Positions 40,936 through 64,000 of a stretch of DNA of 64,000 bases are shown in pieces. This stretch comes from Acuticoccus sp. MNP-M23. GTDB lineage: Bacteria; Pseudomonadota; Alphaproteobacteria; Rhizobiales; Amorphaceae. The stretch covers positions 2,844,501 to 2,908,500 of the forward strand of contig NZ_CP133480.1 of assembly GCF_031195445.1 (NCBI RefSeq), read 5' to 3'. How positions within the stretch are numbered: position 1 is the stretch's first letter; each line of letters opens with the position of its first letter. Below the pieces are notes generated by a model. The model was not told the origin of the DNA and did no database searches. It worked only from the letters and a program-made list of their open reading frames with translations. A program made the position numbers and the translations under genes.

Positions 40936-40967
40936 TGAGGGGGCTTTCGGGGGTCCCCTCATTATTC
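40936..40967 (+). terminator. Possible weak terminator after lpdA
   Basis: TGAGGGG (40936-40942) pairs with CCCCTCA (40955-40961), followed by TTATTCT. The loop is long (12 bases) and the T tract weak, so this is tentative. Confidence 0.35.
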
Positions 40968-41065
40968 TGGCGAGACGGCTGAACCACGCCGGGCGTTGCA
41001 TTGTTCAGAAACAGTACATTCACTGCCCGCTATCCAGCCACCCGATAAAAGAACGAGGATACGCA

Positions 41066-43279
41066 ATGCGCCAGATGGCTAAATTGTTTGTGGTTGGCCT
41101 GACAACCTTCGGGTTGATGTCGCCGGGTCTTGCCAAGGTTGCAGAAAGTGTGCCCGCTTCGGCAGGCGTGGCGACACCGTTCGTGCGAACGGCGGCACCG
41201 AGTGAGCCGGGTTTGCAGGTTGGGCAGCTTTCCGATGAGGAGCGCAAGCGCCGCCGCGAGCTGCGCCTGCAGCGTCAGCAGCAGAAGCAGGGTCAGAATC
41301 AAAACCAGAACCAACGGCAGCAGCAGCGCCAACAGCAGCGGCAGCAGCAACGACAGCAGCAGCGGCAGCAGCAACGCCAGCAGCGGCAGCAGGAGCAGCG
41401 CCAACAGCGCCAGCAGCAGCAACGCCAGCAGAGGCAGCAGGAGCAGCGCCAACAGCGCCAGCAGCAGCAACGCCAGCAGCGGCAGCAGGAGCAGCGCCAA
41501 CAGCGTCAGCAGCAGCAACGCCAGCAGAGGCAGCAGGAGCAGCGCCAACAGCGCCAGCAGCAGCAACGCCAGCAGAGGCAGCAGGAGCAGCGCCAACAGC
41601 GCCAGCAGCAGCAACGCCAGCAGAGGCAGCAGGAGCAGCGCCAGCAGCAGCGGCAGGGCCAGCAGCAGAACCTGACGCCCAACCAGAAGCGGGTTCGTGC
41701 CGAGCGGCGCGCCGAACAAGAGCGCTTGCGCCAGCAGCGCCTGCGTGAGCGCAACCAGAACGCGCAGCAGGAGCGCCGCAAAGAGCGGCAGGAAAACCGC
41801 GCCAACCGGGAGCGCCGGGAGCTGCGTGAGAAGCGCGCTGCCGAACGGCGTCAGGAGCGGCTGCGTGAGCGCCGGCAAAATGGCGGCAACGAGCAGTTGA
41901 CCGATGCCGAACGCAAACGCCGCGAACGCCTGCGGGAACAGCGCGCCAACGAGCGCCGTCAGGAGCGTGTCCGCGAGCGCAGGCAGAACACCCAGGCGGA
42001 GCGCCGTCAGGAGAGGCAGCAAAGGCAGGAGCGCGAACGCCGGCAGAGCCTGCGCGAGCGGCGTCTGGAACGTCAGCAGCAGAACACGCAGGAGCGGCGT
42101 CAGGAGCGCCGGCAGGAGCAGCGTCGCGAGGCCCGTCAGGAACAGCGCAATCTTGAGCGTCGCCGTCAGGTTCGCCAGGAGCGCCGTGCCAATCGTGTGC
42201 AGAACGACCGTCGTGCCGAACGCCGGGCCGAGCGCCTGCGTGAGCGGCGGCAGGAGCTGCGCCGCGAAGTGCGCCGCGATCGCCGGGTGAACAACAACGT
42301 GGCGCGTAACCGCAACCGCAATATCCGGGTCAACGACTGGGAGCGGCGCCAGCGGCAGCTTCGCCGACAGGCGCGGCGCGATTACCGCAACGACCTGCGC
42401 TTCTTCGACCGTGCCGAGCGGATCAACCGCCGCAACCGGCAGATCTACTACAACGACAACCGCTACTTTGTGGTGAACCCGTGGGTGGACCGGTTCGGCT
42501 GGCGGGCGAATGCCATCGATCGCTTCGAGCTGAACAATGGCTGGAACGAGACCGTGGTCATTCGCCCCAACGGCGTGCGGGTCGTGACCATCGCTGACGA
42601 TCGCGGCATCCCGATCCGCCGCTACCGCGAAGTGCCGGGCGCCGCACCGGTGACGTTGTTCAACAACCTGCCGACCTGGTGGGGCAACGATTCCGATGTG
42701 GTCATCGACTATGCGCCGCCGCGTGAGCGCTACATCGTCGATCAGTCGATCGCAGCGCCGGAAGTGGTCTACGAGGCCGTGACCGCAGAGCCGGTGCAGG
42801 AGCTGGATCGTTCGTTCACGCTGAACCAGGTGCTGGCCAACGAGAACGTGCGCGACTACATGCCCCGCGTGGATGTGGACACCATCACGTTCGCGACCGG
42901 TTCGGCTCAAGTGGCGGACAGCCAGATCGACCAGCTGGAGAATATCGGCGTGGCCATCGAGCAGGCTGTCGCCGACAACCCCAACGAGGTCTATCTGATC
43001 GAGGGGCACACGGATGCTGTGGGTTCGGACCTGTACAACCTGGAACTGAGCGACGAGCGTGCCTCGTCGGTCGCCGAAGTGCTCACCGAGTATTTCGAGA
43101 TCCCGCCGGAGAACCTCGTCACCCAGGGCTTCGGTGAGACCTATCTGAAGGTCGATACCCAGGGGGCGAGCGCTGCCAACCGCCGCGTTACGGTGCGCCG
43201 GATCACCCCGCTTCTGTCAACCGACGATGAAATCGCCGGTTATGCGGACGACGAGGCTGTCGGCACCACCGCTCAGTAA
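41066..43279 (+). CDS. OmpA-family outer-membrane/periplasmic protein with Gln/Arg repeats
   Basis: A 737-residue secreted protein. Signal: KLFVVGLTTFGLMSPGLA. Residues about 75-205 are almost only Gln and Arg, including 16-residue repeats RQQRQQEQRQQRQQQQ; 205-450 are Arg/Gln/Glu-rich, likely helical or coiled coil. The C-terminal OmpA-like domain (about 610-725) has DTITFATGSAQVADSQ, YLIEGHTDAVGSDLYNLELS and RRVTVRRITPL, the peptidoglycan-binding motif with Asp and Arg. Such a domain anchors the protein to the cell wall. The basic stretch could bind acidic surface polymers; that is a guess. GAGGA precedes the ATG. A terminator follows. Family homologues with Arg/Gln-rich middles occur in Hyphomicrobiales as I recall. 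Confidence 0.87.
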   Translation: MRQMAKLFVVGLTTFGLMSPGLAKVAESVPASAGVATPFVRTAAPSEPGLQVGQLSDEERKRRRELRLQRQQQKQGQNQNQNQRQQQRQQQRQQQRQQQRQQQRQQRQQEQRQQRQQQQRQQRQQEQRQQRQQQQRQQRQQEQRQQRQQQQRQQRQQEQRQQRQQQQRQQRQQEQRQQRQQQQRQQRQQEQRQQQRQGQQQNLTPNQKRVRAERRAEQERLRQQRLRERNQNAQQERRKERQENRANRERRELREKRAAERRQERLRERRQNGGNEQLTDAERKRRERLREQRANERRQERVRERRQNTQAERRQERQQRQERERRQSLRERRLERQQQNTQERRQERRQEQRREARQEQRNLERRRQVRQERRANRVQNDRRAERRAERLRERRQELRREVRRDRRVNNNVARNRNRNIRVNDWERRQRQLRRQARRDYRNDLRFFDRAERINRRNRQIYYNDNRYFVVNPWVDRFGWRANAIDRFELNNGWNETVVIRPNGVRVVTIADDRGIPIRRYREVPGAAPVTLFNNLPTWWGNDSDVVIDYAPPRERYIVDQSIAAPEVVYEAVTAEPVQELDRSFTLNQVLANENVRDYMPRVDVDTITFATGSAQVADSQIDQLENIGVAIEQAVADNPNEVYLIEGHTDAVGSDLYNLELSDERASSVAEVLTEYFEIPPENLVTQGFGETYLKVDTQGASAANRRVTVRRITPLLSTDDEIAGYADDEAVGTTAQ
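41374..41661 (+). repeat. Tandem 48-bp repeats (about six copies) inside the OmpA-family gene
   Basis: CAGGAGCAG recurs at 41390, 41438, 41486, 41534, 41582 and 41630, exactly 48 bases apart, each coding for RQQRQQEQRQQRQQQQ. Shorter CAGCAGCGG-type 12-base repeats precede it from about 41308. Copies differ by few bases (for example CAGAGG/CAGCGG), so copy number could vary by slippage. Confidence 0.95.
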
Positions 43280-62603: not shown

Positions 62604-64000
62604 TCAGCCACGCGGGGGGCGGGGCGTGCGGGGCTTGTCGTTGCCGCCGGGCCGGTTCGGGCGCCGATCGCCGCCTGGCCGGCCACCGCCACCGCTCGGC
62701 TTGAACGGGCGGGACCCGGAATCGCCGGCCCGCGCCGGACGGTCACTGCCGCCGTGCCGGCCTCCTCCGGCCGGACGATCACCACGCGGGCGATCGTCGC
62801 CAGAGCGCTTGCTCCTGTCCGGCCGCGGCCCGCCGGAACCGCGATCGCTGGCGCCGCGAGGGGGGCGGGGCCCGCTGTCACGCCCGCCGCGCGGATGGTC
62901 GCCCTGAGGACGGTTGCCGCCGAACGAGCCGGTGCCGCCCTTGCGGTCCGCGCTGTCGGTGCGGGGGCGATTACCGCCGAACGAGCCCGTGCCGCCCTTG
63001 CGGTCCGCGCTGTCGGCGCGGGGGCGATTGCCGCCGAACGAACCGGTGCCGCCCTTGCGGTCGGCACTGTCGGTGCGGGGACGATTGCCGCCGAACGAGC
63101 CGGTGCCGCCCTTGCGGTCCGCGCTGTCGGTGCGGGGACGGTTGCCGCCGAACGAGGCGGTACCGCCTTTGCGATCGGCGCTGTCGGTGCGAGGCCGGTT
63201 GCCGCCGAACGAGCCGGTGCCGCCCTTGCGGTCGGCACTGTCGGTGCGGGAACGGTTGCCGCCGAACGAACCGGTGCCGCCCTTGCGGTCGGCACTGTCG
63301 GAGCGGGGGCGGTCTTTCCAAGGCTCGGAGCGGCCGGTGTAATTGCCCTGCGGGGCGCGGTCGCCGCTCGGCCGGGCGCTTTCGCCACGGTCGCCGCGGG
63401 GCTTGAAGCCGCCGCGGTCGCCTTCAGGGCGCGGGCCACGGCTGAAGCTGCCGCCATCGCGTTTCTGGCCGTAGCCGCCGGGCTTGTCGCCGCCGAACGA
63501 ACGGTTGCCGCCCTTGCGGTCCGCGCTGTCGGTGCGGGGGCGGGCCTTCCATGGCTCTGAGCGGCCAGCATCATTGCCCTGCGGGGCGCGGTCGCCGCTC
63601 GGCCGGGCGCGGTCGCCCCGGTCGTCGCGGGGCTTGAAGCCACCGCGGTCGCCTTCAGGCCGGGGGCCGCGCTTGAACCCGCCTTCGCGCCTGTCGCCGG
63701 AGCCGCCATCGCGTTTCTGAAAGCCGCCGGGCTTGTCGCCATAGCTGCGGGCGGGGCGGTCGCCCTCAGGGCGGGGGCCGCGGTTGAAGCTGCCTTCGCG
63801 CTTGTCTGCGTAGCCGCCTTCGCGTTTCTGGAACCCGCCCGGTCTGTCGCCGTAGCTGCGCGGTGTCGCCCCTTCGGAGCGGGGGGGACGGCTGAAGCCG
63901 CCTTCGCGGTTGCCGGTAAAGCCACCCTCGCGCTTTTCGCCGAAACCGCCTTCGCGCTTCTGGAACCCGCCCGGCTTGTCGCCGTAGCTGCGGGGGGCGC
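62604..64000 (-). CDS. Arg/Gly-rich repeat C-terminus of a probable RNA-binding protein (5' end outside the window)
   Basis: On the reverse strand one frame is open from the window edge to a TGA at 62606-62604, at least 465 codons, entirely low-complexity and rich in Arg, Gly, Pro, Asp, Ser and Lys. It contains blocks of RSYGDKPGGFQKREGG, RGPRPEGDRGGFKPR, ARPSGDRAPQGN, GRSEPWKARPRTDSADRKGG and seven copies of NRPRTDSADRKGGTGSFGG, ending DKPRTPRPPRG. RGG-like tails of this type sit on pseudouridine synthases (RluB/RsuA) and DEAD-box helicases in Hyphomicrobiales; which it is cannot be seen here. Two other frames are also open but give no such regular pattern. Confidence 0.85.
   Translation of the reverse strand, partial: APRSYGDKPGGFQKREGGFGEKREGGFTGNREGGFSRPPRSEGATPRSYGDRPGGFQKREGGYADKREGSFNRGPRPEGDRPARSYGDKPGGFQKRDGGSGDRREGGFKRGPRPEGDRGGFKPRDDRGDRARPSGDRAPQGNDAGRSEPWKARPRTDSADRKGGNRSFGGDKPGGYGQKRDGGSFSRGPRPEGDRGGFKPRGDRGESARPSGDRAPQGNYTGRSEPWKDRPRSDSADRKGGTGSFGGNRSRTDSADRKGGTGSFGGNRPRTDSADRKGGTASFGGNRPRTDSADRKGGTGSFGGNRPRTDSADRKGGTGSFGGNRPRADSADRKGGTGSFGGNRPRTDSADRKGGTGSFGGNRPQGDHPRGGRDSGPRPPRGASDRGSGGPRPDRSKRSGDDRPRGDRPAGGGRHGGSDRPARAGDSGSRPFKPSGGGGRPGGDRRPNRPGGNDKPRTPRPPRG
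62913..63311 (-). repeat. Seven tandem 57-bp repeats inside the Arg/Gly-rich gene
   Basis: Seven 57-base units, each coding for a variant of NRPRTDSADRKGGTGSFGG (reverse strand). Differences are mainly at silent sites (for example GCGGTCCGCG/GCGGTCGGCA), so the peptide is conserved. A second direct repeat with 231-base offset joins 63322 and 63553. Confidence 0.92.

Follow-up and report, generated by a model that had tools for sequence, protein, structure and literature searches.

The window analysed here is a stretch of 64,000 nucleotides from the Acuticoccus sp. MNP-M23 genome (NCBI RefSeq assembly GCF_031195445.1, contig NZ_CP133480.1). Directly after lpd it carries a plus-strand gene whose product comprises, in order, a signal peptide, a low-complexity arm of ~400 aa, a stretch predicted to be beta-stranded and a C-terminal OmpA-type wall-binding domain (Table 1). 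This architecture and the identity of the domain were established computationally, and they uphold the preliminary description of the locus in its signal-peptide-like N-terminus, its OmpA-type domain and the extended arm between the two. Cleavage of the signal peptide probably occurs after Ala23, as judged by eye, and a loose small-x-Ala motif is found at residues 17-40 in all 73 of the orthologues described below. The first 40 residues of the window protein contain no Cys, and therefore no lipobox of the kind expected of a Pal lipoprotein, nor was an outer-membrane anchor seen at its N-terminus; among the 73 orthologues, a crude lipobox pattern flags five and a Cys falls at residues 15-35 in eight. 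The SHLS motif, looked for as a mark of TolA/TonB proteins, is absent from the N-terminus, and the C-terminus is PF00691. Between lpd and the gene lies a terminator-like hairpin (40936-40961), a weak prediction given that 4 such sites were found against 3.0 expected; the same scan returned no promoter-like site. A 659-aa minus-strand open reading frame antisense to the gene (41030-43009), Leu-rich across the repeats, was rejected as probably a by-product of codon make-up.

Table 1. Features of the OmpA-family gene and its product, in window coordinates
Feature	Position	Strand	Basis
Shine-Dalgarno-like GAGGA, 6 bases 5' of ATG	41055..41059	+	sequence
Gene for 737-aa protein, stop codon included	41066..43279	+	open reading frame and translation
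Signal peptide (putative)	41066..41134	+	sequence, by eye
Low-complexity arm, Gln/Arg/Glu-rich	41135..42355	+	composition count
Five RQQQ units (12-base repeats), directly before the 16-aa units	41315..41374	+	sequence
48-base tandem array, 6.9 copies, 94% match	41317..41648	+	TRF
Beta-strand-predicted stretch, conserved in orthologues	42416..42664	+	low-confidence model (strands 53-135), alignment
OmpA family wall-binding domain PF00691	42887..43183	+	E 2e-17, 63.7 bits, cut-off 27.2
Asp of GHTD, invariant	43013..43015	+	21/21 alignment rows
Arg, 15 residues after the GHTD Asp, invariant	43058..43060	+	21/21 alignment rows

The preliminary description had reported six exact 48-base repeats. 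The repeats are real and in frame, but that number is too high: when compared in register, the copies starting at 41413, 41509 and 41557 equal the consensus exactly, while those at 41365, 41461, 41605 and 41317 differ from it by 1, 2, 4 and 12 bases, respectively. In the protein, the 16-mer RQQRQQEQRQQRQQQQ recurs exactly five times (starts 41375, 41423, 41471, 41519 and 41567; span 41375-41614), and the 12-base units coding for the RQQQ series are not all identical. Residues 75-199 consist of 85 Gln, 29 Arg, 6 Glu, 3 Asn and 2 Gly. At its longest, an exact repeat within the arm reaches 95 bases; the corresponding length after 1000 rounds of codon shuffling averaged 16.2 (maximum 29) when the whole arm was shuffled and 24.4 (maximum 45) when only the tract was, which rules out an origin of the repeats by chance. 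The idea of a repeat unit scattered over the genome was likewise discarded, with all 11 matches to a 36-base pattern (up to 3 mismatches) falling within the array. A canonical coiled coil was rejected for the Gln/Arg tract, which has no hydrophobic residue and is built of units of 4 and 16 aa. As a control, five other OmpA-domain frames of the same genome (L001-L004, L008) were examined and none contained a TRF array. A second set of tandem arrays in the window consists of a 57-base unit in 7.0 copies (62908-63308) plus longer-period arrays (to 63860); it sits in a minus-strand open frame (62604-63998) that continues past the window edge and codes for much Arg, Gly, Ser, Asp and Pro, so the OmpA-family gene is not the only place here where repeats have grown in low-complexity coding sequence.

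The low-complexity region extends to ~42355, well beyond the tract end given earlier (41661). As counted, the arm has 411 residues, of which 126 are basic, 55 acidic and 3% Pro or Gly. It takes up the N-terminal half, where OmpA porins have their 8-stranded outer-membrane barrel, and residues 1-445 gave no Pfam match. When residues 1-469 were modelled with AF2 from the single sequence (mean pLDDT 74.9), helices of 139, 67 and 182 residues resulted, or 58 nm in total if straight. Single-sequence models of this type favour helix in charged repeats, and for this reason we take the helical arm as a hint only. The arms of the genus Acuticoccus, poor in Pro/Gly and rich in Gln/Arg/Glu, are probably helical and would be so in solution; helix is unlikely for the arms of other lineages in which Pro and Gly make up as much as half of the residues.

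For the C-terminal part, a scan with the full protein listed no Pfam family and listed NCBIfam OmpA-type models, all under their cut-offs. The invariant Asp and Arg of Table 1 are what we take to be the diaminopimelate-holding ligand residues of OmpA domains. Foldseek was run on a structure model of the domain pair (mean pLDDT 49, 4 sequences), which is of use for the OmpA part only; this part matched solved wall-binding domains of OprF and Acinetobacter OmpA, one matched domain having been solved with a diaminopimelate peptide, and OmpA-type domains were among the 50 matches listed of 112 at E <= 0.001. We infer from the sequence that the domain binds peptidoglycan. The middle stretch is probably beta-rich, according to the low-confidence model. 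Pfam returned no match to it in the window protein, and a profile search of solved structures gave a best E of 0.78 and no named relative. DUF6504, which Pfam matched in 4 of 18 members (best E 0.002) and not in the window protein, was not accepted as its name. A conserved middle stretch without a Pfam name is thus one outcome of this analysis.

A family profile built from 21 relatives was run on 249 genomes of the order. Matches were obtained in 127 of them at E <= 1e-30, some covering the OmpA part only, and in 95 at E <= 1e-95, which corresponds to nearly the whole folded part (a count of rows with paralogues left out). From these near-full-length genomes 77 were sampled, picked by hand across genera and not at random. 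Together with the window, the 80 loci fetched made 81, from which we dropped three that end inside the arm (L076, L094, L113), four paralogues (L048-L051) and one of uncertain start (L093); the 73 orthologues kept for the arm counts include one whose arm holds a masked stretch (L058). The window's own genome has one family member at E <= 1e-30. Seven of the eight genomes of the genus Acuticoccus, the window's included, carry the gene, and lpd lies directly before it in the other six as it does in the window. A family member is missing from the remaining genus genome (G001) and from both sister-genus genomes, which carry lpd with no family member beside it. In G001, lpd is followed at the usual gene place by a 232-aa open reading frame (L147, G001:C440, minus strand) that has a signal-like start and an Arg/Glu/Gln-rich tail and in which the OmpA domain is absent. 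A shorter second paralogue (L048-L051), with an arm of ~170-190 aa, occurs in genus members G006, G004, G002 and G005. Literature searches, judged by title and the start of the abstract, found no publication on this protein family.

The arm had been described as unusual, yet all 73 orthologues possess a low-complexity arm, which ranges from 92 to 588 aa (median 361, quartiles 286 and 449) and has a median hydrophobic fraction of 0.08, as against 0.29 in the folded part. Its make-up varies widely, with Pro+Gly at 1-51% and Gln+Arg at 5-61%; Gln/Arg arms are typical of the genus Acuticoccus, and Pro/Gly/Gln, Glu/Ala/Pro or Arg/Asp arms occur elsewhere. Basic charge, put forward as a key feature, did not hold up either. 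The arms span net charges of -0.27 to +0.32 per residue; 30 of them are positive, 21 are negative and 22 lie near neutrality, and a basic arm is local to some lineages rather than conserved. TRF arrays were found in 59 of 73 arms and in 5 of 73 folded parts; 288 of the 292 arm arrays have a period that is a multiple of three, a property that low-complexity coding sequence gives in any case. A tree of the folded part, made by a quick method and with 34 of its 70 inner branches starred, calls for no fewer than 10 switches between Pro/Gly classes and 17 between charge classes, counts that drop to 3 and 4 when the middle or neutral rows are removed. On it the seven members from the genus group together in a single clade with support 100, and every one of them is Pro/Gly-poor and net positive. 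The arm is therefore a general property of the orthologues analysed and its make-up turns over. Absence of the tract from every close homologue, along with a constant repeat number, had been named as a sign of an assembly artefact, and the survey found instead that homologues bear such arms with other units. The Gln/Arg repeats are one species' version of a fast-changing arm common to many related bacteria.

In the five closest pairs of orthologues (domain identity 92-98%), we counted 107 gaps in the arms and none in the folded parts; the counts were made by hand, and gap placement in repeats is not unique. More distant pairs have some gaps in the folded part as well. Within these five pairs the difference in arm length spans from 1 aa (264 and 263) to 160 aa (378 and 538, at 92% domain identity). 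A DNA search for plasmid records close to the window's gene gave no match. Shorter distances were covered in a homologous plasmid gene of Ensifer and Sinorhizobium. In Ensifer adhaerens, five records (98.4-100% DNA identity), of which two bear the name of Casida A strains, each encode 706 aa; E-60 (95.9% DNA identity) encodes 712 aa, 6 aa off, and the more distant CTYH.Ch1 (83.9% over 60%) 756 aa. Sinorhizobium sp. M103, C101 and K101 encode 750 aa each, with 8 units by motif count, and S. meliloti Ak57 encodes 688 aa, with 6 units. E. adhaerens M8 and Casida A (L136, L137) have arms of equal length in which, by eye, some units differ in their letters, as if units had been exchanged at constant number. 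Length change was thus found between species and not among close records of the homologous gene.

Several known systems resemble this protein in part. Pal of E. coli likewise carries a wall-binding domain of the OmpA type after a disordered N-terminal segment, and the length of this segment matters (PMC12826056); however, Pal is a lipoprotein and the window protein has no Cys near its signal peptide, and the Pal truncations in that study were of 8 and 24 aa, as compared with an arm of ~400 aa with tandem repeats and an additional conserved stretch. Domain II of TolA/TonB is also of low complexity and spans the periplasm, shifting from helix-rich to proline-rich between clades (PMC12204202), but those proteins have an N-terminal membrane helix and C-terminal domains of their own, where the window protein begins with a signal peptide and ends in an OmpA domain. 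Deinococcus radiodurans SlpA similarly joins a long stalk to a wall-binding domain (PMC9388160); it has SLH domains, trimeric coiled coils and an outer-membrane barrel, whereas the Gln/Arg tract has no hydrophobic residue. OmpA-RcsF is the topic of a further source (PMC7553776). OmpA family proteins of Ensifer/Sinorhizobium (e.g. UIJ93658.1) share their C-terminal family with the window protein (41% identity at 79% query coverage) and also have a repeat-bearing arm, although theirs is rich in Lys, Arg, Gln, Glu and Ala, is built of longer units and has different gene neighbours.

The features held in common, namely export, a wall-binding domain, a conserved stretch and a long, soluble arm of free composition, make a polymer spacer the simplest account. 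We propose, with confidence evenly balanced between acceptance and doubt, that the protein is exported and wall-anchored and that its arm is a spacer or tether which drifts by in-frame gain and loss of repeats. The C-terminal OmpA domain would fix the exported protein to peptidoglycan, and the N-terminal arm would be a hydrophilic polymer in the envelope that keeps the free N-terminus, or whatever it contacts, away from the wall. Selection would then act on a long, soluble, non-folding arm and not on its letters or charge, in which case in-frame gain and loss of repeat units would let the arm drift until each lineage had its own unit. The roughly sixfold variation in arm length makes a strict ruler unlikely. 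Pal shows graded defects when its disordered N-terminus is shortened (PMC12826056), and the spanning domains of TolA/TonB vary by clade between helix-rich and proline-rich forms (PMC12204202); these are precedents by analogy and do not prove a spacer role for this family. Counting against a spacer are an N-terminus in which no outer-membrane anchor was seen, the 3 and 4 class changes left under the strict count, the missing family member in G001 and in both sister-genus genomes, and the 232-aa open reading frame of G001, which a wall-anchored spacer does not predict in a form without the OmpA domain.

Other readings account for part of these data. The arm could be under little selection, a repeat-prone tail in near-neutral drift while the two C-terminal parts do the work; free make-up, charge and repeat unit and the spread of 92-588 aa are what such drift would give, but a useless exported tail of 400 aa should occasionally be lost, and no full-length orthologue among the 73 is armless and the arms stay hydrophilic, so that we find this reading possible but doubtful. 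Binding of the basic arm to LPS, DNA, acidic polysaccharide or another polyanion, at which the preliminary description hinted, fits the genus, where seven of seven arms have a positive net charge (+0.05 to +0.17 per residue); it is improbable as a general account, with 21 of the 73 arms net negative and 22 near neutral and with 55-106 acidic residues in the genus arms themselves, and would be a local specialisation at most. The preliminary description had further suggested a surface-variation locus, in which slippage alters the repeat number within a population and so varies an exposed protein. Change in repeat length is borne out between species, and the near-identical 48-base copies and the close species with arms of 378 and 538 aa (92%) are in keeping with slippage. 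A switch is nevertheless very unlikely: the 48-base unit keeps the frame, so that gain or loss shifts the length by 16 aa and does not turn the gene off, nothing found bears on surface exposure, and the homologous gene is constant in five E. adhaerens (706 aa) and three Sinorhizobium sp. (750 aa), the equal length of five conspecific records speaking against fast variation, albeit in a homologous gene and not in this species. Least credible of all is a copy number produced by assembly. Such arms can trouble assembly, as the three of 80 fetched family loci whose contigs end inside the arm attest, but the array here lies inside a contig of ~4.9 Mb, its copies carry silent differences, and similar arms recur in other genomes. 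The likeliest role of the arm is that of a spacer or tether and not of a surface-variation switch.

A broader form of the spacer proposal, which we offer tentatively and think rather unlikely to hold in full, is that these proteins are widespread wall-anchored tethers of the order, with a conserved stretch not described before, and that selection acts on the arm purely as a polymer. Repeat turnover would then exchange its chemistry, charge and secondary structure completely without loss of function, and the Acuticoccus arm would be a helical rod. If this were true, the Acuticoccus rod would measure ~58 nm if straight and would be able to follow the wall or to exceed the usual periplasm. Whether a linker is read by its sequence or by length and solubility is left open for Pal in the Discussion of PMC12826056. 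The family provides a set of natural variants of a single wall-binding protein whose arms differ in the sign of their charge and in secondary structure, including in tractable Sinorhizobium, and with this set one can test whether the sequence of an envelope linker matters or only its length and solubility.
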